Position numbers and translations under genes: made by a program. Below are positions 9,096 through 31,337 of a DNA stretch of 64,000 nt, piece by piece. Below the pieces are notes generated by a model. That model worked only from the letters and a program-made list of their open reading frames with translations. It was not told the DNA's origin and searched no databases. Positions within the stretch are counted from its first letter, which is position 1. Every line of letters starts with the position of its first letter. Origin of the DNA: Myxococcales bacterium (lineage in GTDB: Bacteria; Myxococcota_A; Polyangia; GCA-2747355); contig JAGQIK010000559.1 in the NCBI GenBank assembly GCA_020431405.1, positions 1 to 64,000 on the forward strand, in the 5' to 3' direction.

Positions 9096-9097
9096 GA

Positions 9098-11836: not shown

Positions 11837-12180
11837 TTCCGCCTCTCCCTGTCTCCTACGACGATACCAGCGATCGTCGCACGGCGACTCCTCGTCGCAT
11901 GCGATGAGTGGCAACAGGCAGCAGGCCAGTCATCCGCATTCGCCGGTGATCGCAACTCGCCAGTTGATCTGCATCTACGCCACCTTAGACTGTACGCCTT
12001 GGAAATATCTTCCGTTTTTGAGACCCTCGATCGCATCGGCTCCTCGGCGGCACTGATAGGGCACGGTGGGGTGGGAGCCACCGCGCGGCCTTCCTGACTC
12101 CCTCAAGTCTCGTTCCGACCAATCGCTTTGGCGGGAATGGCCGCATTGGGACCGCTGGCATCAGCGCCAGGGAGGCTCAG
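11837..12180. promoter_or_regulatory. Divergent intergenic region, RADAR and helicase operons
   Basis: 344 bases between the rdrA start (minus) and the helicase start (plus); it should carry both promoters. The middle is less GC-rich (ttggaaatatcttccgttttt, about 11999-12020). An inverted repeat cggtgg/ccaccg occurs near 12063-12083. The right end carries GGGAGG six bases before the GTG at 12181. I cannot assign -10 or -35 boxes with confidence. Confidence 0.45.
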
Positions 12181-15100
12181 GTGGACGTCTTTGATCTGCG
12201 CAACCACGTAGTCCGCGACTACGCGGACTACGTCCGCAGTTTCCTCACGATCCGCGACCAGCGTATCGCGGAGCTCGTACAGCGCGAGATGCAGGACGGC
12301 TTCCTTTGGCCCGACCCCCTCGTCCAACTCAACCCCACATTTGAGCCCGGTCCCACGCTCGATGCGCTGATCGCTGACGGCGTGCTGCATCAGGAGTGCG
12401 CCCGGATCTTCTGCCGCAAACCGGCACGCGACACCAACGAGGGGCCTCTACGCTTTCACAAGCATCAGGTCGAAGGCATCGAGGCGGCCCGCAGGGGCAA
12501 GAACTACGTGCTCACGACCGGAACCGGGTCGGGCAAGAGCCTTTCGTACATCGTGCCGATCGTCGACCACGTACTGCGCCGTGGCACCGGGCGCGGTACG
12601 CAGGCGATCATCGTCTACCCGATGAACGCGTTGGCGAACAGCCAGCTCGGCGAGCTCCGCAAGTTCCTTCAGCACGGCTATCCTCAGGGGCGACCGCCCG
12701 TCACCTTCGAACGCTACACTGGTCAGGAGTCCAGCGATGAGCGGCAGCGGATCATCGCCAACCCGCCAGACATCATCCTGACCAACTACGTGATGCTTGA
12801 GCTGGTGCTGACACGGCACGGAAGCGGCGAGCAGAAGCTGGTTAGGGCCGCTGAGGGTCTGCGATTCCTCGTTCTGGACGAGCTGCACACCTATCGCGGT
12901 CGCCAAGGCGCTGACGTAGCAATGCTCTGCCGCCGCGTGCGCGAGGCGTGCAACGCCCACGACCTGCTGCACGTGGGCACGTCGGCAACGCTATCGAGCG
13001 GCGGCACTTGGCAGGAGCAGCAAGCGGAAGTCGCCGACGTTGCGTCGCGGCTGTTCGGTGCCACGGTCGAGCCCGACGCCGTGATCGGCGAGACTCTGCG
13101 CCGAGTGACCGAGCCTTCCAACGGTGGCGACGCTGCGTTCGTCGACAGCCTGAAGACTCGTATTGCCGACGACACTCCGCCTGCAACAGACACCGACGCC
13201 TTTCTGACGGACCCGCTCTCGCGTTGGATTGAAGGAACGCTGGGGCTGCAAGCCGAGCCAGAGTCCGGTCGCCTCACGCGCTGCCGCCCGCGGTCGCTCA
13301 CAGGAGAGGGTGGCGCCGGCGCCGAGCTCGCCAAGCTAACAGGCCTTAGCCCGGATCGATGCGAGCGCATCGTGCGCGAGGCACTGCTCGCTGGCTACCG
13401 CTGCAAGGATGCGCACGGCTGGCCGGTGTTCGCGTTCCGCCTCCACCAATTCGTGTCGAAGGGTGAGTCGGTTTATACGACGCTGGAAGATGAAGACGTC
13501 CGACATGTCACGCTGCAGGCGCAGCAGTACTCGCCGGGATCCGATCGGCAAAAGCTGCTACTGCCGGTGGCCTTCTGTCGCGAATGCGGCCAGGAGTACT
13601 ACCTCGTGCGGCGCGGGCAGGACTCGGAAGGGCGTTACCGTTATCTGCCGCGAGATCTGGGTGAACGTGTCGCCGATGACGACGGCGACCCCGGATTCCT
13701 CTACATCAACACGGCCGATCCCTGGCCGAAGGAGGCCGAGGATGTGATGCAGCGGCTGCCGGACGACTGGATCGAGGTCCGTAGTGGAGCCGAGCGCGTT
13801 AGGGACGCGCGACGCAAGCGACTCCCCCGCGAGGTCTTCGTCTCGCCCGACGGTATCGAGGGCGCTGGCACACTCCGAGCCCACTACATGAGGGCGCCCT
13901 TCATCTTCTGTCCGCATTGCCGCGTGGCATACAGCGCGCACCAGCGCTCAGACTTCGGCAAGCTGGCAACGCTGGGCTCAGAGGGACGAAGCACAGCAAC
14001 CACAATCCTCACCCTGTCGACGATCAGGGAGCTCCGCGGCAATCCTCACCTCGACCGAGAGGCGCAAAAGCTCCTCAGCTTCACCGATAACCGTCAGGAT
14101 GCCTCGCTGCAGGCTGGCCACTTCAACGACTTCGTGGAGATCGGGTTGCTTCGCTCCGCGCTCCACCGCGCCGTTGCGAATGCCGGCGATGAGGGCCTGC
14201 GACACGATACGCTGCCCTTGCGGGTCTTTGACGCGCTGGATCTGCCCCTTCGTCTCTACGCTGCTAATCCCGAGGTCGAATACCTTCAACTCGAGGAGAC
14301 GCAGCGCGCTCTTCGGCGTGTCATCTCATACTACCTTTATCGCGATCTGCAGCGCGGATGGCGAGTTACCCAGCCGAACCTCGAGCAATGCGGGCTGCTG
14401 AGGATCGACTACTTGTCGCTTGATGCCGTGTCCGACGACGACGGCAAGTGGTCCGAGTTTCACCCCGCGTTGGTCACCGCCTCGGCAGCCGATCGGCAGA
14501 AGGTCCTGCGCGTGATGCTCGACTTCATGCGCCGCGAGCTAGCGATCCGCGTCAGCTGCCTGCAGCACACCGAGCAGGAGGGCATCTTGCAGGCGTCAGC
14601 GCAGTATCTGATGCCGCCGTGGGCTCTCGACCCACAGGAGCAGATGGAGCGAGGGCGTCTCCTCTATCCGTGCTCGAGCGGTGCGATTCAAACTCGCGAG
14701 CAGGCCGTGTTCCTTTCGCCGCGAGGCGGCTTCGGCCTCTACCTCAAACGTCGCACCACGCTCCCAGACTACGGTGTTCAGCTCAAGACCGATGACATCG
14801 AGCAGATCATCAACCAGCTTCTAGATGTGCTGACGCTCGCCGGGATCACGCACCGCTTTGCACCGCGCAGAGATGAGAATGTCGCCGGCTACAAGCTGAA
14901 CGCATCGGCGATGGTCTGGAAGGTCGGCGACGGGCAGTCGGGCTTCCGCGATCCCATCCGCGTCCCCCATGCACCAGAGGAAGGCCATCGCGCCAATCCC
15001 TTCTTCGTCGGTTTCTACGGCGCTAGTGCGAGCGACCTCCAAGAGCTTCTCGCCCGCGAGCACACGGCCCAGGTTCTCGCCGAGACACGGCAAGAGCGAG

Positions 15101-17715
15101 AGGACGCGTTCCGCAACGCTCGGCTGCCGATCCTCTTCTGCTCGCCGACGATGGAGCTCGGCGTCGACATCTCTCAGCTCAATGTCGTCAACATGCGAAA
15201 TGTCCCGCCCACGCCCGCAAACTACGCGCAGCGTAGCGGTCGCGCTGGCCGCAGCGGGCAGCCTGCGTTCGTCTATAGCTACTGCTCAGCCGGTAGCCCT
15301 CATGATCAGTACTTCTTCAAGCGGCCCGAGCAGATGGTTGCCGGAGCTGTCACCGCGCCGCGCTTGGATCTGACAAACGAAGATCTCGTCACCGCCCACG
15401 TCCACGCCGTCTGGCTGGCGGAGGTCGGCCTGAGCCTCGGTACGACCCTGTGTGACATCCTCGACGTCACGACGGACACGCCCACGCTCGAACTGCAGCC
15501 GTTGGTCCGTGACGCGCTCGACAACACCGCCGCCCGCCAACGTGCATTCGGACGAGCCAAGAGCTGCATTGGGTCAGCGATCGTCGAGATGATGGGGTCG
15601 CAAGAGAAGGCCGACGACTGGCTGCACCGGATACTAGACGGCGTTCCGCTTGCGTTCGAGCAGGCGTGCAATCGCTGGCGTGCGTTGTACCGCGCGGCGC
15701 TCGATCAGTCGACGAGGCAGCAGCGGTACATCCTCGACGCTTCTCGTTCACCCAGGGACCGCGAGCGAGCTAAGCGACTGCGAAACGAAGCGGAGGCACA
15801 GCTGCGTCTACTGATGGAGACCGACGACATCATCCAGTCGGACTTCTACTCCTACCGCTACTTTGCCAGCGAGGGCTTTCTACCCGGCTACAACTTCCCA
15901 CGCCTTCCCCTCAGCGCGTATCTGCCGGGGCAGCGCCGTCGCCGCGGCAGTCGAAACAATGACGAGTTCATAACGCGGCCGAGGTTCCTGGCGATCTCGG
16001 AGTTCGGCCCCCGAAGCTTCATTTACCATGAGGGTGCCCGCTACGTGATCAACAAGGTCATCTTGCCTGTCGAGGGTGAGGAGACCAGCATCGTGGGCCG
16101 CGCGTCCCAGTGTGAAGCCTGCGGATACCTGCACCCGCTCGGCGACGGTCCACCGCCAGACCTTTGCGAGCACTGTGACGCGAAGCTCCCTGTCGCGATG
16201 GACAACCTCTTTCGCATGCAGAACGTCTCCACGCGCCGCCGCGACCGGATCAACTCAGACGAAGAGGAGCGCTTTCGCCTCGGCTACGAGATCCGTACCG
16301 GCGTTCGATTTGCGCAACGCAACGGCACGAGCATCGAGCGGCACGCCACGCTCGCCGCGGCCGACGGACGCCCGCTTGCCCGCCTGATCTACGGGCATGC
16401 CGCCACGCTCTGGCGCATGAACATGGGCTGGCGACGTCGCCGCAACCAGGACCAGACGGGGTATGTGCTCGACATCGAGCGTGGGTTCTGGGCCAAGAGC
16501 AAGGACGTGACCGACGAGGACCCCGAGGACCCGCTGTCGGCGCGGACGATGCGGGTGGTTCCATATGTCGAAGACCGTCGCAACTGCCTGCTCGTCGAGC
16601 CGGCCGAGCCGCTCGACACGACGACGATGACGTCGTTGGAGGCCGCGCTCAAGAACGCCATCCAGGTTCACTTCCAGCTCGAGGATAGCGAGGTTGCAGC
16701 CGAGCAGCTTCCCAACTACGACGACGCCAAGCTCATCCTGCTGTACGAGGCTTCAGAGGGCGGCGCAGGCGCGTTGCGGCGCCTCGTAGAAGAGCGCGAT
16801 GTACTGCCAGCAGTAGCACGGACCGCGCTCGAAATCTGCCACTACGACGCCGACACCGGCGAGGATTTCGGCCGGCCCCCCCGTGCTCGAGAGATCTGCG
16901 AGGCCGCCTGCTACGATTGCCTGCTGTCCTACTACAACCAGCGCAACCACCGCTTCCTCGACCGCAAGGCCCTACCAGACCTACTCCAGGCGTGGATTGC
17001 GGGCGCCGTCGCCACGTCGCCAGCACCGATGGGCCGACACGAGCAACTCATTCGGCTGGGACGCCTGGCCGACTCCAATCTCGAGCGCAAGTGGCTCGAG
17101 GCAGTGGACGCTTTCGCCCTACGCTTGCCCAGCACGGCGCAGAAGCTCATCGAGAGCTGTCAGGCCCGGCCCGACTTTCTGTACGAGGACAAGGGCGTGG
17201 CGATCTTCGTCGACGGCCCGGTTCATGACGATGCTCGCCGCCAACAAGAAGACGCGGAGCAGCAAGAGCGTCTCGAGGACGAGGGCTACGCTGTGGTCCG
17301 CTTTCACCACGCAGCGGACTGGGCGGAGATTTTCGGCCGCTACCCGAGCGTTTTCGGTTCCCTGGAGCGACCAGCAAGTACACCGACCCCCAGTCGATCG
17401 TCTTCGATCGACGCTGAGACGGGTCTGGATCTCGATCTCTTTGACGACGACTGGCATCCGCTGCTGAAGGCGATCGTTGAGGAAATCGGATGCGCTGTCG
17501 AGCCCGGCGGAGATGTCAGCAGTGGTGGCCGCGTCGTCGGGCAGGCCGCCGCGATCATCGGCAGCAGCGACCGACGAATCTGGCTGATCGACGAAGGTGA
17601 TCCATCGTGCGGGCGCATCAAGACCGCGCTTGGCAGCCAGGGCCACGCCTCAGTGCTCTTGAGTCCCGCTGCCGCTAACGCATTGGATAGGATCCGCGCA
17701 GCGCTCGAGGCGTAG
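12181..17715 (+). CDS. Giant DEAD/DEAH helicase with DUF1998 and C-terminal nuclease fold (DruE/DrmA-like)
   Basis: 1844 residues, GTG start with GGGAGG upstream. Helicase core: Walker A TTGTGSGKS (about 112-120), Walker B LDELH (about 231-235), SAT motif VGTSATL (about 266), motif VI QRSGRAGRSG (about 1016). Zinc knuckles: FCRECG, FCPHC, and CEACGY...CEHC (about 1311-1332). The DUF1998/MZB signature CEAACYDCLLSYYNQRNH is near 1572. Residues about 1630-1720 (RPDFLY, VAIFVDGPVH, GYAVVRFHH) look like a Vsr/DUF559-type PD-(D/E)XK nuclease fold. Length and DUF1998 resemble DruE of Druantia; DISARM DrmA/DrmB are related. None of the other Druantia subunits is present. It heads a tightly packed operon (2 bases to the next gene). 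It probably translocates on invading DNA; that is inference. Confidence 0.8.
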   Translation: MDVFDLRNHVVRDYADYVRSFLTIRDQRIAELVQREMQDGFLWPDPLVQLNPTFEPGPTLDALIADGVLHQECARIFCRKPARDTNEGPLRFHKHQVEGIEAARRGKNYVLTTGTGSGKSLSYIVPIVDHVLRRGTGRGTQAIIVYPMNALANSQLGELRKFLQHGYPQGRPPVTFERYTGQESSDERQRIIANPPDIILTNYVMLELVLTRHGSGEQKLVRAAEGLRFLVLDELHTYRGRQGADVAMLCRRVREACNAHDLLHVGTSATLSSGGTWQEQQAEVADVASRLFGATVEPDAVIGETLRRVTEPSNGGDAAFVDSLKTRIADDTPPATDTDAFLTDPLSRWIEGTLGLQAEPESGRLTRCRPRSLTGEGGAGAELAKLTGLSPDRCERIVREALLAGYRCKDAHGWPVFAFRLHQFVSKGESVYTTLEDEDVRHVTLQAQQYSPGSDRQKLLLPVAFCRECGQEYYLVRRGQDSEGRYRYLPRDLGERVADDDGDPGFLYINTADPWPKEAEDVMQRLPDDWIEVRSGAERVRDARRKRLPREVFVSPDGIEGAGTLRAHYMRAPFIFCPHCRVAYSAHQRSDFGKLATLGSEGRSTATTILTLSTIRELRGNPHLDREAQKLLSFTDNRQDASLQAGHFNDFVEIGLLRSALHRAVANAGDEGLRHDTLPLRVFDALDLPLRLYAANPEVEYLQLEETQRALRRVISYYLYRDLQRGWRVTQPNLEQCGLLRIDYLSLDAVSDDDGKWSEFHPALVTASAADRQKVLRVMLDFMRRELAIRVSCLQHTEQEGILQASAQYLMPPWALDPQEQMERGRLLYPCSSGAIQTREQAVFLSPRGGFGLYLKRRTTLPDYGVQLKTDDIEQIINQLLDVLTLAGITHRFAPRRDENVAGYKLNASAMVWKVGDGQSGFRDPIRVPHAPEEGHRANPFFVGFYGASASDLQELLAREHTAQVLAETRQEREDAFRNARLPILFCSPTMELGVDISQLNVVNMRNVPPTPANYAQRSGRAGRSGQPAFVYSYCSAGSPHDQYFFKRPEQMVAGAVTAPRLDLTNEDLVTAHVHAVWLAEVGLSLGTTLCDILDVTTDTPTLELQPLVRDALDNTAARQRAFGRAKSCIGSAIVEMMGSQEKADDWLHRILDGVPLAFEQACNRWRALYRAALDQSTRQQRYILDASRSPRDRERAKRLRNEAEAQLRLLMETDDIIQSDFYSYRYFASEGFLPGYNFPRLPLSAYLPGQRRRRGSRNNDEFITRPRFLAISEFGPRSFIYHEGARYVINKVILPVEGEETSIVGRASQCEACGYLHPLGDGPPPDLCEHCDAKLPVAMDNLFRMQNVSTRRRDRINSDEEERFRLGYEIRTGVRFAQRNGTSIERHATLAAADGRPLARLIYGHAATLWRMNMGWRRRRNQDQTGYVLDIERGFWAKSKDVTDEDPEDPLSARTMRVVPYVEDRRNCLLVEPAEPLDTTTMTSLEAALKNAIQVHFQLEDSEVAAEQLPNYDDAKLILLYEASEGGAGALRRLVEERDVLPAVARTALEICHYDADTGEDFGRPPRAREICEAACYDCLLSYYNQRNHRFLDRKALPDLLQAWIAGAVATSPAPMGRHEQLIRLGRLADSNLERKWLEAVDAFALRLPSTAQKLIESCQARPDFLYEDKGVAIFVDGPVHDDARRQQEDAEQQERLEDEGYAVVRFHHAADWAEIFGRYPSVFGSLERPASTPTPSRSSSIDAETGLDLDLFDDDWHPLLKAIVEEIGCAVEPGGDVSSGGRVVGQAAAIIGSSDRRIWLIDEGDPSCGRIKTALGSQGHASVLLSPAAANALDRIRAALEA
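12206..12233 (+). promoter_or_regulatory. Strong 12-bp hairpin inside the first codons of the giant helicase
   Basis: Perfect inverted repeat acgtagtccgcg / cgcggactacgt with a 4-base loop (acta), 25 bases after the start codon (codons 9-18). Such a stem in mRNA could limit initiation or early elongation, or the DNA palindrome could be an operator. The encoded peptide is itself repetitive (RDYADYVR), so codon-level coincidence is possible. Confidence 0.5.
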
Positions 17716-17717
17716 AC

Positions 17718-19775
17718 ATGGGGCAACTGCTCGTCGCTGACACGTTCTTTCCATCCCTCAGCAAACTCGAGGCGAAGGAACAGGCTCGCGCCATCGATTT
17801 CGTTGCGCGATTCCAGCGTAACCCTGCTAATCCCGGCGTCAGTCTTGAACGGCTCACGGCTCGGTCGACGGACATCTGGAGCGGGCGCATCAGCCGAGAC
17901 CTGCGAGCCATCCTCTACAAGGACGGCGATTCGTGGGCGGTGCTTTACGCCGACCACCACGATCAGGCATATCGATGGGCCGAGCGCCGCGACATCGGGC
18001 GGCATCCGGTTACCGGATCGCTGCAGATCATCGAGACGGTGGAGACCATCCGCGAGGTCGCAAAGACGCTCGAGGCAGCGGTCCCAACCGGAGCACAGCC
18101 TGTATTCGCCGAACACGATAGCGACTACCTGCTAAGCCTCGGCGTGCCCGAGACCTGGCTCCCGGCCATTCGCAAGATTGTGAGCGACGAGCAGCTGTTC
18201 GAGGCCATCAGCCGCTTGCCCGAGGAGCTCGGCGAGCGTCTGCTTGACCTCGCCGCTGGCGAGTTCGTCACGCCGCCCGTACCAACGCCGCTGTCCGCAC
18301 CAGTCGCGGACAACGAAGACACGCGACGGCGTTTCTTCGTTGCAGACAACGAAGCGGAGCTCACCGCCGCCCTCGAAGCCCCTCTCGAGCGGTGGATCGC
18401 CTTTCTGCATCCGTCCCAGCGAACGCTCGTCGAGGCCTCCGTTAATGGCCCGGTGAAGGTGACGGGCTCTGCTGGCACCGGCAAGACTGTTGTGGCGATG
18501 CACCGCGCCCGCCATCTGGCTCGTCAGGGTAAGCGAGTTCTGCTGACGAGCTTCGTTACGACGCTCTGCAAGAATCTCGAGCGCAGTCTGGCGATGCTCT
18601 GCACCCCGGAGGAGCGCAAGCAGATAACTGTTTCCACGGTTCACAAGCAAGCGCTGGTGCTCGTCCACCAAGTCGAGCCACGCCTGCAGCCCGCGGCCGA
18701 GAAGGATGTTGACGGGCTGGTCGCCAGGATGGCGCTGAGCCACGCCTCATCCTTCAATGCCGACTTCGTGCAAGCGGAATGGAAGCACGTGATTCAGATG
18801 CAGGGGATCACGCGATGGTCCGAGTACCGATCAGCGAAGCGCACTGGACGCGGCCGCCCGCTCTCCGTCCGCGACCGCAAGACGTTGTGGACCGCCTTTG
18901 AGGCGGTGCAGACAGGTCTTGCCAGTCGAGGCCTTGTGGACTGGCCCGGCCTCTGTGTTCGTGCCGCCAACGCCCTGCAGGAGGGACGCGCCAGTTCGTC
19001 GTTCGATGCGGTTATCGTGGACGAGGTCCAAGATCCACGACCTCCAGCCCTACGGCTCGTGGCGGCGCTTGGAAACGAGCTGATGGTGGTGGGCGATGCG
19101 GGACAGCGCATCTATCCCGGCGGCTTCAGCCTCGCTGCGCTCGGCATCAACGTGCGCGGGCGCTCCCGCATCCTCCGCATCAACTATCGCACCACGGAGC
19201 AGATCCGCCGTAGCGCCGATCGGGTACTAGGAGATGCCGCGGACGACCTCGACGGCAGCAGCGAGCCACGCGCTGGAACAAAAAGCCTGCTCAGCGGACC
19301 TGCCCCGACGCTTTCCTCACACGCCACACGGGAAGCCGAGCTCGCGGCTGCAGTGGAGCAGATCAAGTCGTTGCTGGTCGATGGCGTGGCATTGGGCGAC
19401 GTCGCAGTCTTCGCGCGATCGGGATCCCGCGCGACGGCAGCCGTCAAGGCTCTCGAGCTGGCCGGGCTGACGAGTCGACGTCTGGCAGACGACGACGCAC
19501 CCCACGGCGGAGCCGTATCGGTCGGCACGATGCACCGCGCCAAAGGCCTGGAGTTCAAGGTTGTGCTGGTACTCGACTGCGGCGCGTCCGTGATGCCCAG
19601 TCCACACGTCCTACGACAGCTCGACGACCCGCAGGACTGCGAGGACGCAGAAGCGAGGGAGCGACGCTTGTTGTATGTGGCGATGACCCGCGCTCGAGAT
19701 CAGCTCTACCTGAGCTGGTCAGGCAAGCCCAGTCCATTCATCGAGCCGCTGCTAAATCGGGAGAACGCCGGATGA
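17718..19775 (+). CDS. RelE-like domain fused to UvrD/Rep superfamily I helicase
   Basis: 685 residues, ATG two bases after the previous stop. Residues 1-95 resemble the RelE/ParE toxin fold (FQRNPANPGVSLERL, DIWSGRISRDLRAILYKDG, AVLYADHHDQAYRWAERR). The UvrD-type helicase starts near 235: Walker A GSAGTGKT (about 250), Walker B AVIVDEVQDPR, VGDAGQRIYPGG, RILRINYRTTEQIR, VGTMHRAKGLEFKVV and motif VI LLYVAMTRARDQLYL. All helicase motifs appear intact. RelE-UvrD fusions are recurrent in defence neighbourhoods. The stop overlaps the next ATG (ATGA), so expression is coupled. The RelE part may act on RNA or serve only as a binding module; this cannot be told from sequence. Confidence 0.88.
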   Translation: MGQLLVADTFFPSLSKLEAKEQARAIDFVARFQRNPANPGVSLERLTARSTDIWSGRISRDLRAILYKDGDSWAVLYADHHDQAYRWAERRDIGRHPVTGSLQIIETVETIREVAKTLEAAVPTGAQPVFAEHDSDYLLSLGVPETWLPAIRKIVSDEQLFEAISRLPEELGERLLDLAAGEFVTPPVPTPLSAPVADNEDTRRRFFVADNEAELTAALEAPLERWIAFLHPSQRTLVEASVNGPVKVTGSAGTGKTVVAMHRARHLARQGKRVLLTSFVTTLCKNLERSLAMLCTPEERKQITVSTVHKQALVLVHQVEPRLQPAAEKDVDGLVARMALSHASSFNADFVQAEWKHVIQMQGITRWSEYRSAKRTGRGRPLSVRDRKTLWTAFEAVQTGLASRGLVDWPGLCVRAANALQEGRASSSFDAVIVDEVQDPRPPALRLVAALGNELMVVGDAGQRIYPGGFSLAALGINVRGRSRILRINYRTTEQIRRSADRVLGDAADDLDGSSEPRAGTKSLLSGPAPTLSSHATREAELAAAVEQIKSLLVDGVALGDVAVFARSGSRATAAVKALELAGLTSRRLADDDAPHGGAVSVGTMHRAKGLEFKVVLVLDCGASVMPSPHVLRQLDDPQDCEDAEARERRLLYVAMTRARDQLYLSWSGKPSPFIEPLLNRENAG

Positions 19776-22597: not shown

Positions 22598-25500
22598 AGC
22601 GCCGCGCAAGCCAATCTCCCTTCACCTCCGTGAAATCCGAGGGAGGCATTCTCCCGATCGATCTACTCGAGCTCGTCGCAGCGCGTGACGATCGCGTGCC
22701 TGGCCTTGCCAACGCCGCGTACCACCTCGGCAAGCACGAACGCATCGGCGAAGCCATCAACCGATCATGGAGCCGCCTTCTCGGGTGCTGGACCAGCTTC
22801 TCGGACGCACGCGCGAAGCTGACCGAGGGAGATCGCGGCACGACGATTACACGCGAACGCTGGCTCTTGCCTCTCTTTCAGGAACTCGACTACGGCCGGC
22901 TCACCGCCGCCAAGACCTTCGAGATCGACGAGCGCAGCTTCACCATCTCACACGCATGGCAGAGCTCGCCGATCCACCTTCTGGGCTGCAAGGTCTCGCT
23001 CGACCGCAGGATGAAGGGCGTCGCAGGCGCAGCGAGCGCATCACCGCACAGCTTGGTCCAGGGCTTTCTCAACAAGTCCGACGATCATCTCTGGGGCTTC
23101 CTCTCCAACGGCCTTGCGCTGCGCATCTTGCGCGACAACTACAGCTTCACCCGCCAGGCCTACGTCGAGTTCGACCTCGAGGCGATCATGGACGGCGAGC
23201 AGTACGCCGAGTTCGCCCTGCTGTGGCTCTGCTGTCATCAGAGCCGCGTCGAGCACGAGGTTCCCGAGCAGTGCTGGCTCGAGAAATGGTTCGAGTTCTC
23301 GCGCGAGGAAGGCGTCCGCGCTCTCGACGGGCTCCGCAACGGTGTGGAAGAGGCCATTGCCACGCTGGGCGCCGGCTTTCTGCGCTATCGAGGTAACGAG
23401 GCTCTACACAGGGCTTTGCAGGCTGGCGAGCTCGACACCCAGGACTACTACCGACAGCTCCTTCGGCTCGCCTACCGTCTGATCTTCCTCTTTGTCGCCG
23501 AAGATCGACAGGCCCTGCTCGATCCCGCCGCCTCAGACGCCGCCAAGCGTCGCTACACCAACTACTACGCCACCACGCACCTGCGCCACCTGGCAGGGCG
23601 TCGGCGCGGCGGCCCGCACGTGGACCTGTGGCGCAAACTCCGGCTCGTGATGAGCAAGCTCTACGACGGCTGCTCCGAGCTCGCCCTCCCCGCGCTCGGG
23701 AGCCAGCTCTGGGACGATCGCACCGTTTCCTGGCTTGTCGGCAGCGACATCACCAACCAGGACCTGCTACGCGCCATCGCCGTGCTGTCCACGATCATTG
23801 AGGGCGGCGTCCGTCGCCCGGTGAACTGGCGCAACATCGGCGCCGACGAGCTCGGCAGCGTGTACGAGTCACTGCTCGAGCTGCATCCCAACCTCAGCCG
23901 AGACGCCGGGACCTTCGAGCTCAAGTCGGCCGCGGGCCACGAGCGCAAGACGACCGGGTCCTACTACACGCCGGCATCGCTGGTAAGCTGCCTGCTCGAT
24001 ACCGCGCTCGATCCTGTGATGGACGAGGCGGTGAGCAAGCCGAACTCCGAGCGGGCGCTCCTCGAGCTGAAGATCTGTGACCCGGCCTGCGGGTCGGGGC
24101 ATTTCCTGGTGGCCGCGGCGCACCGGCTGGCCAAGCGTCTAGCAGCCGTTCGCTCCGACGACGACGAGCCCAGTCCCGAGGCGCTGCGAAGGGCGCTCCG
24201 TGACGTGGTCGGGCGCTGCTTGTTCGGAGTCGACGTCAATCCCATGGCGATCGAGCTGTGCAAGTTCAGCCTTTGGCTGGAGGCGATCGAACCGGGCAAG
24301 CCGCTGAGCTTTCTCGATGCACACCTCCAGTGTGGCAACTCCTTGCTCGGAGCCGCGCCCGCGCTGATGTCCGATGGCATTCCAGACGATGCTTTCAAAC
24401 CAATCGAAGGCGACGAGAAGAAGGTCGCCGCTCGGCTGAAGAAGCGCAACAAAGCGGAGCGAAGGGGGCAGACCACGCTCTTCGCATCTTTTGCTTCTGA
24501 GGCAAGAGTGGAATACCACGTGCTCGCCAATCAGGCGAAGCACGTAGAAGAGTCGCCTGACGACGACATCAGTGCGGTGCGTGAGAAGGAGCTGTCGTGG
24601 CGTCGGCTGCAGCAGTCAGCGAAGTTCAACGACAAGGTGTTTGCAGCGGACGCATGGTGCGCGGCATTCGTCTGGCCCCTGACTGACGAGTCGGAGGCCT
24701 TCGCTGTCACGCACGATGTCTGGCTTCAGCTCCAGAGAGATGTGACGCGCGTGCCCCAGCAGACCCGCTCTGAAGTGCGGCGGTTAGCAAGGCAGTTCGG
24801 ATTCTTCCACTGGCATCTCGCGTTTCCCCACGTCTTCTCGGAGGTCGAGGCCGAGCGTCGTGATTCTGGGATGGGCTGGTCCGGGGGGTTCGACGTTGTG
24901 TTGGGGAACCCTCCGTGGGAGCGCATTAAGCTGCAAGAGAAGGAGTTCTTCGCCACGCGAAACGAGGGGATTGCCAGCGCCAAGAACGCGGCCGCGCGAA
25001 GAAAGCTGATCGCCAAGCTACCCAGCGAAGACCCTACCCTATGGACCGCGTGGTGCGATGCTCGCCGTATCGCCGAGGGCGCGAGCCACCTGGTCCGCAA
25101 CACCGGGCGCTACCCACTCTGCGGCCGCGGAGATGTGAACACCTACTCGATCTTCGCGGAGCTCAACCGTGGTCTCATGTCGTCACGGGGGCGCGTCGGC
25201 TGCATCGTGCCCACCGGCATCGCCACAGACGATACAACTAAGGCATTCTTTGCGGATCTCATGGGTCGTCGACAGCTTGCGGCGTTCTTCGGCTTCGAAA
25301 ACGAGGCGAAGCTGTTTGCCGGCATCGATCATCGCGTCAATTTCTGCCTCCTCGTCCTATCGGCAGCGCCAAGCTCGGCAGCGAAGTTCTCCGCCTTTGT
25401 CCGCGATCCCTCGCTTCTGCGCGGTGGGGACCGCGTTTACGAGCTTTCGGCTAGCGACATCGCTCGCCTCAATCCGAACACGCGCACATGCCCCGTCTTT

Positions 25501-27042
25501 CGCACGCGACGTGACGCAGATCTGACCCTCTCGCTGTACGACAGGGCTGGCATCCTCTGGACCGAGGCGAGCAATGAAGCCGGCAACCCCTGGGGCATGC
25601 GCTTCGGATCCATGTTTCACATGGCGAACGACTCTGGTTTGTTCCGAAATGCGAGCGCGGTAGCGGCTGGCTCATCTCGCGAGGGGCCTCACCTTCGGCT
25701 CTTTGAGTCGAAGATGATATACCACTTCAATCACCGATTCGGGGACTTTGCCCTCGTAGAGCCCGGACAACGAGCGCACATTCTGCCCGACGTGCTAGAC
25801 GAGCATTGTGCTCAAGCTCGGTATCAAACCACTCCACGATACTGGGTCGCCGAAACGGCAGTTGTGGAACGCATGGCTTCCGTTTGGAGGCATCGCTGGT
25901 TTCTCGCCTGGCGTCGAGTCACTGACTCGCGCTCGAGCGTCAGGACGTTCATTGCCACGGTCCTTCCTTGGTCCGCCGTCGGTGATTCCCTGTTCCTCGC
26001 TATGCCTTCGACGAAACCAGTGAAGACTGCGGCGTTGCTAGCGAACTTCTGTAGCTTCATCTTCGACTACGCTTGCCGGCAAAAGCTGAGCGGAGTGAAC
26101 CTCAACTACTACGTAGTCCGTCAGCTTCCAGCTTTGATGCCCTCGAGCTATGACGGTCCTGCACCTTGGTGTTCCCACTCCCGGCTACAAGACTGGATAC
26201 TTTCCAGAGTCCTTGAGCTGACCTATACCGCCTGGGACTTGGGGTCATTCGCTCATGACGTTGGGTACCGAGGGCCTCCCTTTCGTTGGGATCCGCAGCG
26301 TCGCGCAGTGCTACGCGCCGAGCTTGATGCAGCGTTCTTTCACCTCTATGGCATCGCCGCCGCCGACGTCGACTACATCATGGACACCTTTCCCATTGTT
26401 CGTCGGAGGGAAGAGAAGCACCTTGGGGAGTACCGCACCAAGCGCCAGATCCTCGAGGTATACGACCTGATGGTGCGAGCCATCGAGACGGGCGAGCCGT
26501 TTCGCACCCTTCTTGATCCTCCGCCAGCCGACCCGAGCGTGGCACATCCCGCCGTCCATCCCCTTTCGCTACCCGCCATGCCGGCGACGACCCCCGCGCT
26601 CGGCGTGCAAGACGATTTCGCGGTCCTGATCTGGGCGCTGCTGCGAGCACGAAGCGGACGCATTGATCGCATCCAGCTCGCTCGCGCTTTCGCTCTGCGG
26701 AGCCAGCCAGCAACGCTGGCAAGGTTGGCACCCGCAGCGCTACAGGAGCAGGCAAACGCCTGGCGTGACCGCGTCGCGTCGCGAGAGGTGGCGAACGGCG
26801 CCCTCGCCCAAGCTCTGAACGAGCTTGCTGACCGGGAGGGCGTAAGCCTGACGTCGGCGGGAGGAAGGGCTTTGGTGGAGGCGACCGCTCACACGCCGCC
26901 GGAAGAGAAGATCGACCCCTGGTACCGCTTCGAAGCTCGGCTTGCCCTGGCGGTCCTCGACGAATTGCCATCCGCTGAGGTCTCACAGATCGACCGCGAG
27001 ATTCCGGCAGAGGACCACGGGAGGGCGGAGGCACAAGGGTGA
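22594..27042 (+). CDS. Very large N6-adenine DNA methylase (Eco57I/DrmMI/HmaB-like)
   Basis: 1482 residues, ATG overlapping the previous stop. The methyltransferase core has the SAM-binding motif CDPACGSGHFLVAA (about 494-507), DVNPMAIELCKFSLWLEAIEP, and the catalytic GNPPWERIKL (about 771-780), diagnostic for N6-adenine methylation. An N-terminal region of about 450 residues and a C-terminal region of about 500 residues (probable target recognition) flank it, as in single-chain Eco57I-like enzymes. I do not see a convincing PD-(D/E)XK site in the N-terminus, so cleavage by this protein is not claimed. In DISARM and Hma loci such methylases mark host DNA and are paired with helicases. Coupled to the next gene by a GTGA overlap. 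Confidence 0.88.
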   Translation: MKRRASQSPFTSVKSEGGILPIDLLELVAARDDRVPGLANAAYHLGKHERIGEAINRSWSRLLGCWTSFSDARAKLTEGDRGTTITRERWLLPLFQELDYGRLTAAKTFEIDERSFTISHAWQSSPIHLLGCKVSLDRRMKGVAGAASASPHSLVQGFLNKSDDHLWGFLSNGLALRILRDNYSFTRQAYVEFDLEAIMDGEQYAEFALLWLCCHQSRVEHEVPEQCWLEKWFEFSREEGVRALDGLRNGVEEAIATLGAGFLRYRGNEALHRALQAGELDTQDYYRQLLRLAYRLIFLFVAEDRQALLDPAASDAAKRRYTNYYATTHLRHLAGRRRGGPHVDLWRKLRLVMSKLYDGCSELALPALGSQLWDDRTVSWLVGSDITNQDLLRAIAVLSTIIEGGVRRPVNWRNIGADELGSVYESLLELHPNLSRDAGTFELKSAAGHERKTTGSYYTPASLVSCLLDTALDPVMDEAVSKPNSERALLELKICDPACGSGHFLVAAAHRLAKRLAAVRSDDDEPSPEALRRALRDVVGRCLFGVDVNPMAIELCKFSLWLEAIEPGKPLSFLDAHLQCGNSLLGAAPALMSDGIPDDAFKPIEGDEKKVAARLKKRNKAERRGQTTLFASFASEARVEYHVLANQAKHVEESPDDDISAVREKELSWRRLQQSAKFNDKVFAADAWCAAFVWPLTDESEAFAVTHDVWLQLQRDVTRVPQQTRSEVRRLARQFGFFHWHLAFPHVFSEVEAERRDSGMGWSGGFDVVLGNPPWERIKLQEKEFFATRNEGIASAKNAAARRKLIAKLPSEDPTLWTAWCDARRIAEGASHLVRNTGRYPLCGRGDVNTYSIFAELNRGLMSSRGRVGCIVPTGIATDDTTKAFFADLMGRRQLAAFFGFENEAKLFAGIDHRVNFCLLVLSAAPSSAAKFSAFVRDPSLLRGGDRVYELSASDIARLNPNTRTCPVFRTRRDADLTLSLYDRAGILWTEASNEAGNPWGMRFGSMFHMANDSGLFRNASAVAAGSSREGPHLRLFESKMIYHFNHRFGDFALVEPGQRAHILPDVLDEHCAQARYQTTPRYWVAETAVVERMASVWRHRWFLAWRRVTDSRSSVRTFIATVLPWSAVGDSLFLAMPSTKPVKTAALLANFCSFIFDYACRQKLSGVNLNYYVVRQLPALMPSSYDGPAPWCSHSRLQDWILSRVLELTYTAWDLGSFAHDVGYRGPPFRWDPQRRAVLRAELDAAFFHLYGIAAADVDYIMDTFPIVRRREEKHLGEYRTKRQILEVYDLMVRAIETGEPFRTLLDPPPADPSVAHPAVHPLSLPAMPATTPALGVQDDFAVLIWALLRARSGRIDRIQLARAFALRSQPATLARLAPAALQEQANAWRDRVASREVANGALAQALNELADREGVSLTSAGGRALVEATAHTPPEEKIDPWYRFEARLALAVLDELPSAEVSQIDREIPAEDHGRAEAQG

Positions 27043-29048
27043 GCCGGCAGCTGCGCATCTCCGGGATCGATCCGCGGCGGGAGCTCAAGCCGGATCGCGC
27101 TCGACAAACCCCCGTTGTCTGGATCAGCCGACTGCAGATCCGACGATCGCTCGCCGCGGGTGACGAGCACGTCATCCGCGACATTGAACTCCGGCGGGGG
27201 CTGAACATCATCTGGGCGCCGCCAGCCGACAGCGAAGAGGAGAACGCTCTCTTCCGCAGTGGCGTCGGTGGCCATACGGCTGGCAAGACCACGCTCTGCC
27301 GCTTCATCCGCTTCGCGCTGGGCGAGGGGAGCTTCGCCACCGAGAGTACCCGCCAGCGCATCCGGCTCAAGATCCATGGCGGATGGATTGCCGCGGAGGC
27401 GCAGGTCGGCGGACGCCTCTGGGCCATCGCCCGACCATTCGCGGTCGGGCCGCACCCCCGGTGCGTGGAGGACGGCTCGATCGACGACATGCTCGCTGAC
27501 GGCGCGGACGACCGGCGCGACTACCAGGCGTTCCTCGACGCGGTGCGGAAGGCAACGACATCCACGCTGCCCGCCCGCAACTTCCCTGCGCGTGGTGAGG
27601 CCGTTCAATGGGAACACATCCTGCCGTGGCTGTCCCGCGACCAGGAGTGCCGCTTCTCCGACTTCCTCGACTGGCGTCATGCTTCCACACACTCGGACGC
27701 ACCCGGCCTTCACACCGACGAGCGGCAATTCGTTGTTCGCTCAGTCCTCGGCCTGATCACTGACAGGGAGCGGGCGGAGCAGAAACGAAATGCCGAGCTG
27801 CTGGCCAAGAAAAAGCAGGCGGAGCGTCTAGCCCCGCTGCTCGCTCACCAGGCGACTGTAGATCACCAACGAGTGCAGGAGGCGCTCGACCAGAAGCTTC
27901 CGCCACCGTCCTCCGATCTCTTCGGCGAGCAAAGCGGCAAGGAGGTCCAAAGGCATGTGGCGGAGCTAAAAGAGAAGATGCGAGCGCTCGAAGAAGCTGA
28001 CCGTCGTGCCGAGTTCCGGCAGGTTCTCGAAGAGCGCGTGGCGGCTGAAGCGAACGCGCGGCGCGATGTCGAGGAAGCCGCTACGCGACTTGGTGCTGAG
28101 CAGCTTGCTGTCCAACAGCTGGCTCCTCGAGCTGCGGGCGAGGGTCAGGCCGCGCTACTTGCCAGCCTTCCGCCGGCCCGCGACTACTGCAATGTCCCTA
28201 TGGCCCTCGCCCGCGAGCAAGGCTGCCCGATCGCCGCCGGCCGCCCGCTGTCGCTCGAGCGGAAGAGAAGCGAGCGAACAGCCGCCGAGGCCCTCGAAGC
28301 GCAGCAACAGATCGTCCAGGCGCTGGAGGCCCAGGCGCGGTCACGGCAAGCGGCGCTGAAGACTGCCCAGCAGGCGACGCGAAAGGCCCGTAAGGCCTAC
28401 ACCAAAGCGGCGACGGCCTACGTGGAGAAACGCGAACGCCTGCTAAAGGACCAGTCGCGCCTCGACCACATCTCGCGCCTAGTCGATAACGCCGCCAAGG
28501 CCTGGAAGCAGTCGGAGAAGAAGACGGCGACGATCGACAAGCTCGCCAAGGACATCGACGCCTCCTACAAACAGCAGGTGCAGCTGCGCCAGGAAGCCAA
28601 TGAAGCGCTCGGGAGATTCTCGTCGACCTTCGAACACGTCGTGCGTGCCCTGCTCGGCGACCAAGTCACCGCGCGGGTGGAAGCAGCCGGACGCGGACTG
28701 TCTTTGAGCATCGATGACAACGGCGAGCGCGACAGCGCCGCCCTCGAAACGCTCAAACTCTGGGCTTTCGATCTCGCCGCGCTAACGGACAGCATCGAAG
28801 GGCACGGCCACTTCCCACGCTTTCTGCTACACGACGGCCCTCGAGAGGGAGACATCGCAGCCGACCTCTACGAGCGGCTCTTCCTCTACGCACGCCAACT
28901 CGAGTCTTGCTTCGACGGTGAGCCGAACTTCCAGTACATCGTCACCACGACGACGCCTGCTCCGGTCTCGCTAGCCAAAGAGCCGTGGCTTCGCCTCCAG
29001 ATCTCAGGCGCTCCGGCGGAGCAGCGCCTGCTGACGATGAACCTATGA
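27039..29048 (+). CDS. SMC/RecN-like coiled-coil ATPase (HmaC-like)
   Basis: 669 residues, GTG start overlapping the methylase stop. N-terminal ATPase half with Walker A GGHTAGKTTLCRF (about 76-88), preceded by LRRGLNIIWAPP. Two long coiled-coil arms (about 245-360 and 400-520) flank a central segment with two cysteines (DYCNVPMALAREQGCP, about 384-399) where a Rad50-type hook would lie; the spacing is not a CxxC hook. The C-terminal lobe has FLLHDGPREGD, a Walker-B-like D-x-x-E segment. This is the expected third gene of helicase-methylase-ATPase loci and resembles DUF2326-type ATPases. A 73-base gap to the next gene makes it the last strictly overlapped member of the operon. Confidence 0.82.
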   Translation: MSRQLRISGIDPRRELKPDRARQTPVVWISRLQIRRSLAAGDEHVIRDIELRRGLNIIWAPPADSEEENALFRSGVGGHTAGKTTLCRFIRFALGEGSFATESTRQRIRLKIHGGWIAAEAQVGGRLWAIARPFAVGPHPRCVEDGSIDDMLADGADDRRDYQAFLDAVRKATTSTLPARNFPARGEAVQWEHILPWLSRDQECRFSDFLDWRHASTHSDAPGLHTDERQFVVRSVLGLITDRERAEQKRNAELLAKKKQAERLAPLLAHQATVDHQRVQEALDQKLPPPSSDLFGEQSGKEVQRHVAELKEKMRALEEADRRAEFRQVLEERVAAEANARRDVEEAATRLGAEQLAVQQLAPRAAGEGQAALLASLPPARDYCNVPMALAREQGCPIAAGRPLSLERKRSERTAAEALEAQQQIVQALEAQARSRQAALKTAQQATRKARKAYTKAATAYVEKRERLLKDQSRLDHISRLVDNAAKAWKQSEKKTATIDKLAKDIDASYKQQVQLRQEANEALGRFSSTFEHVVRALLGDQVTARVEAAGRGLSLSIDDNGERDSAALETLKLWAFDLAALTDSIEGHGHFPRFLLHDGPREGDIAADLYERLFLYARQLESCFDGEPNFQYIVTTTTPAPVSLAKEPWLRLQISGAPAEQRLLTMNL

Positions 29049-29121
29049 CGGCAATACGCTGGGACGCTTCATTCTCGCGTCACGTACGCGAAGTTGGTGC
29101 TGTTTGGCGGAGGGGTCTGCA

Positions 29122-29976
29122 ATGAGCTCGAGCGTTCACTTGCTCGGTATCGACGAGAAGCTGACGGAGACCGAGCGGCTCTCTGCCTTCTTCCACATGG
29201 TTAACCGGCTCTTGCCCCCAGATCAGGTGGTGCTGGCGATTCCCCCCGAGATGCCTGCCGGGGAGGCGCTCTCGCTAATGCGAGCAAACGGATACTCTCA
29301 GCTGCCCGTCAAGCAGGGAGAATCGGTGCTCGGTCTCTTCACGTATCGCGCCTTCGCGCTTGAAGTGGCCAAAATGAAAAAGCCCGCGGTTGACCCATCG
29401 ACTCTCGCCGTCGAGGAGTTCCTCGAGCACGAAAAGCCGGCCTACGCCCGTCTGAGCGACGAGTTCAGGGGGCTCGTCGACGTACTCGACGAACGGGACT
29501 CCGTCGTGGTTAGCGGGCCAGACGACCTCATTGCGATTCTGACGCCCATGGACGTGCTTCGGTACCTCTATTCCGTAGCCAACGCCTTCGTCCTGATCGA
29601 GGAAATCGAACTGGCGTTGAGGGCGCTAATTCGTGCAAGCACGCCAGACCACGAGTTGTTTCTGACTTGCATCCGTAACGCTCTCTCGAAGAAGTACAAG
29701 GACAAAGAACTGCCGCAGCGACTCGAAGACATGACTTTCGACGAGTACGTCGCTCTGCTACGGGACGGTCGCAACTGGCCTCATTTCGAGAGCAACTTCG
29801 GTGGCACTAGAGAAAGAACCCGCGGGAAGCTGGAGCCGATCCGTGACCTCCGCAACGATGTGTTTCACTTTCGTCGCGAGCTATCGATTGGGGACCACAA
29901 AGCGCTGACAACCTGCCGAGACTGGCTTCTGCGATGCGTGCGCAAAGTGCACGCAAGAGAAGGGGGTCGGCAATGA
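29122..29976 (+). CDS. CBS-domain protein with C-terminal HEPN (Swt1-like) domain
   Basis: 284 residues from ATG 29122, chosen for the purine-rich ggcggagggg upstream. Residues about 35-155 contain two CBS-type repeats (GEALSLMRANGYSQLPVKQG with VLGLFTYRAFA; later DLIAILTPMDVLRYL). Residues about 165-275 are helical and include LRNDVFHFRRE, where RNDVFH fits the R-x4-H signature of HEPN ribonucleases and Swt1-type HEPN domains. CBS pairs usually bind adenine nucleotides, so the layout is sensor plus RNase. Its stop overlaps the start of the following helicase-like gene (ATGA). With RADAR next door making unusual nucleotides, a nucleotide-sensing RNase is a suggestive but unproven link. Confidence 0.75.
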   Translation: MSSSVHLLGIDEKLTETERLSAFFHMVNRLLPPDQVVLAIPPEMPAGEALSLMRANGYSQLPVKQGESVLGLFTYRAFALEVAKMKKPAVDPSTLAVEEFLEHEKPAYARLSDEFRGLVDVLDERDSVVVSGPDDLIAILTPMDVLRYLYSVANAFVLIEEIELALRALIRASTPDHELFLTCIRNALSKKYKDKELPQRLEDMTFDEYVALLRDGRNWPHFESNFGGTRERTRGKLEPIRDLRNDVFHFRRELSIGDHKALTTCRDWLLRCVRKVHAREGGRQ

Positions 29977-31337
29977 CCATCGACCAGGGCGAGGTGCGAG
30001 CCGACCCACGCTACACCTCATACCAACGAGAGTTCTTCGAGCGCTTCGTTTCGAAGGTAGACCGCGGAAGCATTCACTTGCTCTTGGCGCCAATTGGCAC
30101 CGGCAAGTCGTTTGTCACGGCAGGGAGCATCGCTGAGCTCTTAAGGATTGGTCGCCTACGACGTGTTCTGATCATGTCTCCTGCAGCGCTCGCGTCGCAA
30201 TGGGCCTACATGCTTGGGGACATCGGCTGCGATACTGCCGTTGTCGATGGGCGGGCTCTGCGGCTTCTGCTCGAACAAGTGGGGTCCAGCTTCAATGATT
30301 GGCCCATTGGCTCTTTCTCAATGAGTATCGATCTCGGAAAGCGCCCACCTGTTCACGATGCCATTGTTCGCGTGCCGTGGGACCTGGTCGTCGTCGACAA
30401 CGCACACGCCCTTGGTGGCCAGCGCCTTCAGCTCATTGAGGACTTTGCCGCAAGGGAGAACGCGCCAGCTCTCTTACTACTAGCTGCCAACAATCTCAGC
30501 AGAGGCACGGCAGCCTTCGTCGACCAAGCCATCGTTGTCGACTGGACTGCAGCGATCAACGAGATACGCGGCCCCGTGGAGGAGCGGCTGCACCGAGTCA
30601 CATGTCGCTACAGCTTGGCGAATGACGAGTTGACGGTCATGCGCGGTGTCTGCGAGTGCGCACTCAAGCTAGAACCGTTCCGCGGACTCCTACTACTTCA
30701 TCGAGCTGCCTCAAGCGTCAGCACGTTGGAGGAGACCTTGCTACGCTGGCTTGCTGATTGTGCCGACTCATCCGATTCGACACTGGCAGATGCCTTTGGA
30801 GACCTGCTCGACGACGTGGAACAACTACGCGTCGATTCGAAGCTAGATTGTTTCCAAGCGCTCATTCAAGAGCTCATCGGTGATCAGACTCGACACGTCG
30901 TAGCGTTTTGCGAGTACCGCGCAACGCTTGAGTACCTAGCAGCAGCCGTGGAGCGCCTCGAGTTTCCCGATTATCGGCTCCACGGAGGGTTGTCGGCGGG
31001 CCAACGTGCAGACGTTCTAGACCGTTTCGAACGCGATGGCGGACTACTGGTCACAACGGGAGCGTCTGAGACCGTATCACTTGGCTACGTCGATGCAGCG
31101 ATTCACTATGATCTTCCTCTATCGGCGGCCGCCTTCGCTCAGCGCGAGGGGCGCTACGACCGGTTCGGTCGCCGAGGCCGCTGTAGCGTCTTCTTCTTCG
31201 AAGACGAGGCGCAAGCGAACCCACTCGATGGGCTGCTACTCAAGCTGGTCGCCAATAGCGGCCTTGTGACAGTCGACCAACGTATTGAGCCGTTCGACGT
31301 CTTTGGCACGGACCACGCGGCGACTTTTAGCGGGTAG
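29973..31337 (+). CDS. Short SNF2-like helicase with degenerate Walker B (DNAH)
   Basis: 454 residues, ATG overlapping the CBS-HEPN stop. Superfamily 2 landmarks: Walker A APIGTGKSF (about 38-46), VLIMSPAALASQW, then DLVVVDNAHALGG at about 137-149, where the catalytic glutamate of DEAH is replaced by Asn. The second lobe has HVVAFCEYRATLEYL, YRLHGGLSAGQRADVL and motif VI FAQREGRYDRFGRRG (about 388-402). It resembles the DrmD-like helicase upstream (HEQREGRVDRYGQ) but is half the size, so it may be a shortened paralogue. The motif II change predicts impaired ATP hydrolysis, suggesting a binding or sensing role with the HEPN partner. Residue identity is seen; the consequence is inferred. Confidence 0.75.
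   Translation: MTIDQGEVRADPRYTSYQREFFERFVSKVDRGSIHLLLAPIGTGKSFVTAGSIAELLRIGRLRRVLIMSPAALASQWAYMLGDIGCDTAVVDGRALRLLLEQVGSSFNDWPIGSFSMSIDLGKRPPVHDAIVRVPWDLVVVDNAHALGGQRLQLIEDFAARENAPALLLLAANNLSRGTAAFVDQAIVVDWTAAINEIRGPVEERLHRVTCRYSLANDELTVMRGVCECALKLEPFRGLLLLHRAASSVSTLEETLLRWLADCADSSDSTLADAFGDLLDDVEQLRVDSKLDCFQALIQELIGDQTRHVVAFCEYRATLEYLAAAVERLEFPDYRLHGGLSAGQRADVLDRFERDGGLLVTTGASETVSLGYVDAAIHYDLPLSAAAFAQREGRYDRFGRRGRCSVFFFEDEAQANPLDGLLLKLVANSGLVTVDQRIEPFDVFGTDHAATFSG

Follow-up and report, generated by a model that had tools for sequence, protein, structure and literature searches.

A putative ARMADA variant with the gene order C-D-A-B next to a two-gene CBS-HEPN unit in a Myxococcales genome

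Seven densely packed genes on one strand of a Myxococcales contig (GenBank assembly GCA_020431405.1, contig JAGQIK010000559.1; the analysed stretch of 64,000 nucleotides is referred to as the window) raise the question whether they encode a single defence machine or neighbouring systems. The original prediction had described them as an Hma or DISARM-like helicase-methylase-ATPase core embedded between further helicase and RNase genes, and had argued for one large machine or a nested operon. All seven open reading frames were confirmed at the predicted coordinates on the plus strand, domain searches agreed with the domains described, and the notion of a dense defence operon with a helicase-methylase core was borne out. 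Based on gene content, gene order and phylogeny, however, the locus very probably harbours two adjacent defence systems, namely a variant of ARMADA, a system reported only recently (genes 1–5, 12181–29048), and a separate two-gene unit (genes 6 and 7, 29122–31337).

ARMADA (Bell et al. 2025, preprint; PMC12458937) is composed of a YprA-like helicase (ArmC), a BrxHII-like helicase (ArmA) and a PglX-like methylase (ArmB), to which Type II adds ArmD, a GajB-like UvrD helicase with an N-terminal RelE domain. According to the main text of that work, the gene order is A-B-C-D in Type II, where it is termed strict, and usually C-A-B in Type I; phage protection is reported there for the E. coli Type II system only, which acts directly and non-abortively and requires all four proteins. 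The A-B-C-D reference order was read directly in E. coli ATCC 8739, the strain used in the ARMADA study.

The first two window genes, which the original prediction had placed outside the core, correspond to ArmC and ArmD. Gene 1 (12181–17715, plus strand) encodes a YprA/MrfA/DruE-type DUF1998 helicase of 1844 residues with Pfam matches to DEAD, Helicase_C, MZB (37.9 bits) and DUF559 (21.1 bits, cutoff 20.6) and a score of 324 bits against DruE models. Its helicase motifs (Walker A K119, DELH D233) are followed by a C-terminal Vsr/DUF559-type nuclease (PDF...FVDG, about residues 1660–1710), and it thus shows the combination of a YprA-like DUF1998 (MZB) helicase and a Vsr-type nuclease that is a class feature of ARMADA. 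At the level of sequence motifs, CxxC at residues 466, 577, 1311, 1329 and 1577 would be compatible with the insertions that characterize ArmC in ARMADA, a BrxA-like one following RecA1 and MarR-like or zinc-binding ones within RecA2. Gene 2 (17718–19775, plus strand) encodes ArmD, a 685-residue fusion of an N-terminal RelE-like RNase fold with a GajB-like UvrD helicase (Walker A K256, D435). Within the RelE domain, all 33 relatives share R63 and H81, and Y85 is kept in 30 of them. Assignment of the fold is based on a profile match of this domain to RelE3 (PDB code 3bpq, E 7.5e-4); a single-sequence AlphaFold model (pLDDT 42) was discarded. Gene 3 (19772–22597, plus strand) codes for ArmA, a BrxHII/DrmD/DpdE-like Snf2 helicase of the RapA type (941 residues; K127, D226), and gene 4 (22594–27042, plus strand) for ArmB, an Eco57I-type N6-adenine DNA methyltransferase related to PglX, DrmMI and type IIG enzymes (1482 residues), which carries the motifs DPACGSG and NPPW (N772) and gave no match in a sequence search of the PDB.

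Residues at which mutations weakened or eliminated protection by the E. coli Type II system have counterparts in the window proteins (K127 and D226 of ArmA, N772 of ArmB, K119 and D233 of ArmC, K256 and D435 of ArmD); for the S-adenosylmethionine-binding glycine of ArmB the comparison was made at the level of the motif, DPACGSG, which is present. ArmD is 34.7% identical to its E. coli counterpart over the full length, while ArmC, ArmA and ArmB align partially with 22–34% identity; this difference suggests that ArmD has travelled separately from the other three subunits. Judged from their sequences, genes 1–5 are an ARMADA variant with the order C-D-A-B, which differs from both Type II (A-B-C-D) and Type I (C-A-B) and goes unmentioned in the main text of the ARMADA paper.

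For assessing the recurrence of this arrangement, 84,980 species genomes were scanned with an ArmA alignment and the best 80 loci, distributed over many phyla, were retained (termed the 80 ARMADA loci). Wherever the contig is long enough, ArmC, ArmA and ArmB follow each other in that order in most of them. This finding also bears on the proposal that genes 3–5 form an Hma or DISARM core with accidental neighbours, which can draw on the scores of the HmaA (201 bits), DrmD (287 bits) and DrmMI (223 bits) models on genes 3 and 4. Yet HmaB is a 5-methylcytosine methyltransferase and the window methylase is of the Eco57I/N6 type, neither HmaB nor HmaC has a homologue among the seven proteins in profile searches, DrmB and DrmC (PLD) match none of the seven genes, DrmA appears only as a generic helicase match, and the recurrent position of ArmC upstream of ArmA and ArmB marks it as a regular component. 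We therefore consider an Hma or DISARM core extremely improbable. DISARM as identity of the locus was rejected since a single protein unites DUF1998 with the helicase, in place of separate DrmA and DrmB genes, and a DrmC gene (PLD nuclease) is lacking; Hma was ruled out by the N6 methylase and the missing HmaB and HmaC matches, and Druantia III was dismissed as no DruH match was found among the seven proteins.

A RelE-UvrD gene between ArmC and ArmA was found at three of the scanned loci, in Nannocystis (L052), a Deltaproteobacteria metagenome-assembled genome (L056) and a Thermoanaerobaculia metagenome-assembled genome (L063; ArmD partial at the contig edge). Searching 377 genomes from the phylum of the window with ArmD revealed three further C-D-A-B loci in genomes of three families (L243, L244 with ArmD at 8624–10723 in a long open frame that overlaps ArmC, and L245; genomes G005, G286 and G026), giving seven loci including that of the window. 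Their seven ArmD sequences form one clade (support 100/100) apart from Type II ArmD and from actinobacterial ArmD encoded downstream of ArmB; in this tree, L248 and L253 are labelled Type II-like solely because a YprA-like gene precedes ArmD. Correspondingly, the five C-D-A-B loci with full-length ArmC form one clade in the ArmC trees (SH-like approximate likelihood-ratio test support 100), located among Type I-order loci and remote from the ArmC of E. coli, the single Type II reference used. The window locus hence combines an ArmC of the Type I clade with an ArmD (17718–19775) inserted between C and A, contrary to the Type I order C-A-B, and a RelE-GajB/UvrD fusion as in Type II, which stems from a separate ArmD clade and is not arranged in the strict A-B-C-D order. 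These data bear on the alternative of a canonical Type II system with a rearranged gene order. The locus does possess the complete Type II set, RelE-UvrD included, but the grouping of ArmC with Type I-order loci, the ArmD clade of its own and the difference between the full-length ArmD alignment to E. coli and the partial ones of its partners make this alternative very unlikely, and we retain the assignment to a distinct variant. As separate observations, a ParA-like ATPase and a SIR2-like protein are inserted between ArmD and ArmA in the Nannocystis locus (L052:7888–9887) and an NB-ARC/TPR protein between ArmC and ArmA in a Herpetosiphon ARMADA locus (L050:6043–8805).

Gene 5 (27039–29048, plus strand) encodes an SMC-like ATPase of 669 residues with a DUF2326/YydD/LmuB fold, a Walker A motif (GGHTAGKT), an invariant HD-PRE motif and two invariant cysteines near the apex of the coiled coil. 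In its AlphaFold model (pLDDT 76.7) the nearest structures are YydD and Lamassu LmuB; a PDB sequence search yielded no match. Of the 80 ARMADA loci, 12, none of them of C-D-A-B order, have an SMC gene adjoining ArmB (spacing of −43 to +13 bp), and the same neighbour lies directly 3' of ArmB in G009, G337, G036, G234 and G089, five genomes that belong to the phylum of the window. An SMC gene also directly follows ArmB on a Paraburkholderia plasmid, and four more plasmid records contain ArmC and SMC genes at matching spacing. The closest relative of the window protein is the SMC protein of G009 (51% identity), a genome with an ArmC from the SMC-bearing clade; we infer that the SMC gene was probably transferred onto the C-D-A-B core from an SMC-bearing ARMADA lineage. 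Elsewhere the position behind ArmB is occupied by McrBC-like pairs, OLD-like AAA ATPases, GmrSD, HNH, NA37 or a metallo-beta-lactamase-fold protein, and therefore represents a variable accessory slot; the association of McrBC with such loci has been reported previously (PMC11090510). In the six other C-D-A-B loci ArmB is followed by different or no known genes. Lamassu as identity of genes 1–5 was rejected because the LmuB-like fold is accompanied by no LmuA effector match; neither LmuA nor LmuC matched any neighbouring window protein in profile searches.

How far does this ARMADA unit extend? The claim that nearly all start and stop codons overlap is correct for four junctions, ArmD/ArmA, ArmA/ArmB, ArmB/SMC and CBS-HEPN/helicase, each with an overlap of 4 bp, but not for ArmC and ArmD, which are 2 bp apart, nor for the SMC and CBS-HEPN genes, which are separated by 73 bp (29049–29121). 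Packing is therefore continuous only within genes 1–5 and, apart from these, within genes 6 and 7. In addition, the guanine-plus-cytosine content, which is 0.630–0.656 in genes 1–5 and 0.586–0.588 in genes 6 and 7, falls across the gap from 0.656 to 0.586, so that junction spacing and base composition by themselves suggest two units. Gene 6 (29122–29976, plus strand) codes for a CBS-HEPN protein of about 284 residues and most likely starts at ATG 29122, the open frame reaching up to TTG 29104. Gene 7 (29973–31337, plus strand) codes for its helicase-fold partner of about 454 residues; its start is most likely ATG 29973 and not 29934, because the resulting ATGA overlap is also present in the pairs of other genomes.

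Both domains of the gene 6 product are recognizable and the RxxxxH motif is intact, the RNase motif RNDVFH being invariant. A related protein, DS-11 (DefensePredictor), has been described as a one-protein defence system requiring CBS and HEPN residues (PMC13092281). Gene 6 scores 93.7 bits against the NCBI model NF053863, which is below the cutoff of 260 bits, and it is accompanied by a second gene. Strong CBS-HEPN relatives are few in the window's phylum, and a gene 7 homologue lies directly downstream in all five non-redundant complete cases (the window, G048, G059, G821 and G831), with the ATGA overlap common to the window, G059, G821 and G831. G059 and G196 were counted as one case; the helicase-like partner is identical in these two genomes of different classes, on contigs of 3 kb (L155, L156), which therefore probably reflects contamination in at least one of them. 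G333, a sixth genome, has an intact relative of gene 7, upstream of which only the last approximately 25 residues of a CBS-HEPN protein are encoded. The window partner keeps GTGKS, carries DNAH in place of DEAH and has lost motif III. When the partners were aligned to ArmA, motif III was found to be lost in six of six and motif I or II to be defective in five, G333 alone keeping motifs I, II and VI. No helicase-like partner was found in the neighbourhoods read of the Pseudomonadota relatives (longer, DS-11-like proteins) and the haloarchaeal ones, and viral contigs (IMG/VR) contained no CBS-HEPN relative. Together these features identify genes 6 and 7 as probably a new two-gene variant of DS-11.

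The relationship of this pair to ARMADA was inspected from both sides. No CBS-HEPN gene stands beside any of the 80 ARMADA loci and only two weak matches occur in 49 whole ARMADA-carrying genomes; conversely, the sequence read around the CBS-HEPN/helicase pairs, in several cases a short contig, contained no recognisable ARMADA core genes. Genes 1 and 2 recur with the core and belong to it, whereas genes 6 and 7 do not recur with it; the chance adjacency of outer genes that would speak against the original prediction applies to genes 6 and 7 but not to genes 1 and 2. The absence of the pair from the ARMADA loci and its recurrence on its own leave the idea of one large machine unsupported. In its most explicit form, this idea would take the CBS-HEPN protein and the DNAH helicase as a suicide arm released when ArmA or ArmC is blocked, as PARIS-like modules back up BREX. 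The common strand and the short gap free of terminator-like matches would fit, as would the acceptance of effector genes in ARMADA accessory slots and the backup HEPN and OLD effectors documented inside BREX loci (PMC12839542). Given the recurrence data, the step in base composition and the different or unrecognised genes behind ArmB in the other C-D-A-B loci, we nevertheless regard a seven-gene machine as unlikely and favour two adjacent systems.

Several observations weigh against this division and the ARMADA assignment. Genes 5 and 6 may possibly be co-transcribed across the 73 bp and the two units functionally coupled, since no terminator is visible in the gap; in fact neither a promoter-like nor a terminator-like match was detected at 28900–29300. 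The trees contain a single Type II representative, an E. coli sequence with a long branch. The SMC gene, present in the window but in none of the six other C-D-A-B loci, may therefore be a passenger here. Finally, RelE-UvrD genes are also found beside BPTD_3080-type restriction-modification genes, beside a BREX-like BrxL gene or alone, and are therefore not exclusive to ARMADA. Cases recorded on plasmids (L208, L209, L210) place RelE-UvrD directly 3' of type III-like restriction-modification genes in Gemmobacter and Pseudomonas amygdali and of brxL in Thermus oshimai.

The observed gene content and order, shared ancestry, recurrence, retention or loss of motifs and unit boundary permit a first mechanistic scenario for both units, every biochemical step of which we infer; it appears possible while falling short of probable. 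Function has been demonstrated elsewhere only for E. coli ARMADA Type II (PMC12458937) and the single-gene DS-11 (PMC13092281), as far as these reports describe. Genes 1–5 might constitute a methylation-guided DNA-restricting system, as the E. coli relative is direct, non-abortive and dependent on all four proteins; the details are drawn mainly from ARMADA Type II, DISARM, MrfA and Lamassu. ArmB would methylate host DNA at its own sites, and unmodified incoming DNA would be handled by ArmA together with ArmB. ArmC might then load onto the DNA, translocate and cut with its Vsr-type nuclease, while ArmD would unwind exposed ends or transcription bubbles and its RelE domain cut the associated RNA. 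By likeness to LmuB, the SMC ATPase might act as a sensor of DNA ends or loops, which it would clamp, thereby helping to trigger or retain the complex. In the second unit, the CBS-HEPN RNase would stay inactive until a nucleotide ligand occupies the CBS domain and/or the partner is bound to infection-specific nucleic acid, and the HEPN domain, once released, would cut RNA. Such a ligand- and sensor-gated RNase is suggested by DS-11 and by the mostly degenerate ATPase motifs of the helicase-like protein.

The surroundings of the locus contain further candidate defence genes. Upstream, on the minus strand, lies a RADAR-like pair (6405–9110 and 9098–11914) with a 901-residue protein matching RdrB (120 bits) and adenosine deaminase; the adjacent AAA protein of 938 residues did not match RdrA but could represent a divergent form of it. 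A CHAT-domain protease-like protein (2537–4099, plus strand; 69 bits) is preceded by a 684-residue open reading frame devoid of Pfam matches. Just downstream of the seven genes, a Mutator-family transposase reading frame (31668–32498, plus strand) covers positions 14–195 of 379 of the Pfam profile, about half, and is therefore probably a broken copy. It is followed by a large Avs3a-like STAND protein (32692–38862, plus strand; 282 bits) with a Cap4-type nuclease N-terminus, whose vicinity characterizes the region as a defence island.

The description of ARMADA dates from as recently as 2025 and comprises a single, strict order for Type II besides a simpler Type I. A clade uniting a Type I-lineage core with an own RelE-UvrD lineage, together with operons in which SMC, McrBC, OLD-like or GmrSD genes take the last slot, suggests that ARMADA is a restriction core accepting exchangeable effectors. 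Extending this thought, we tentatively propose, at somewhat less than even confidence for the claims taken jointly, that several DNA-restricting systems have each recruited RelE-UvrD as a portable subunit, namely Type II, actinobacterial C-A-B-D and C-D-A-B ARMADA as well as type III-like restriction-modification and BREX-like systems, that the slot behind ArmB allows ARMADA lineages to exchange an SMC protein serving as DNA sensor, and that genes 6 and 7 form a new two-component defence system in which a helicase-derived infection sensor, largely stripped of its ATPase motifs, controls a CBS-HEPN RNase.

Compared with known systems, the window shares with ARMADA Type I the ArmC lineage and the Vsr-type nuclease tail of ArmC, but differs by RelE-UvrD between ArmC and ArmA and by the SMC ATPase after ArmB; the main text of the ARMADA paper (PMC12458937) reports neither feature for Type I, and the words SMC, CBS and HEPN are absent from it. 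With Type II (E. coli NCTC 12900, ATCC 8739) the window has in common the full set of four components, among them the RelE-UvrD fusion, as well as the catalytic residues, and is distinguished from it by the order C-D-A-B, separate ArmC and ArmD clades and the extra SMC gene. The likeness to Hma (PADLOC, PMC8565338) lies in a row of helicase, methylase and ATPase genes, set against a different type of methylase. Gene 5 shares the SMC-like fold and a long coiled coil with Lamassu LmuB and YydD (DUF2326), its partners in the window being ARMADA genes. Gene 6, in turn, resembles DS-11 in its CBS and HEPN domains and conserved RNase motif; it is a short version that lacks the N-terminal extension seen in relatives of approximately 355 residues and, in contrast to the one-protein DS-11, is paired with a helicase-like protein, which offers DS-11 a candidate sensor partner.

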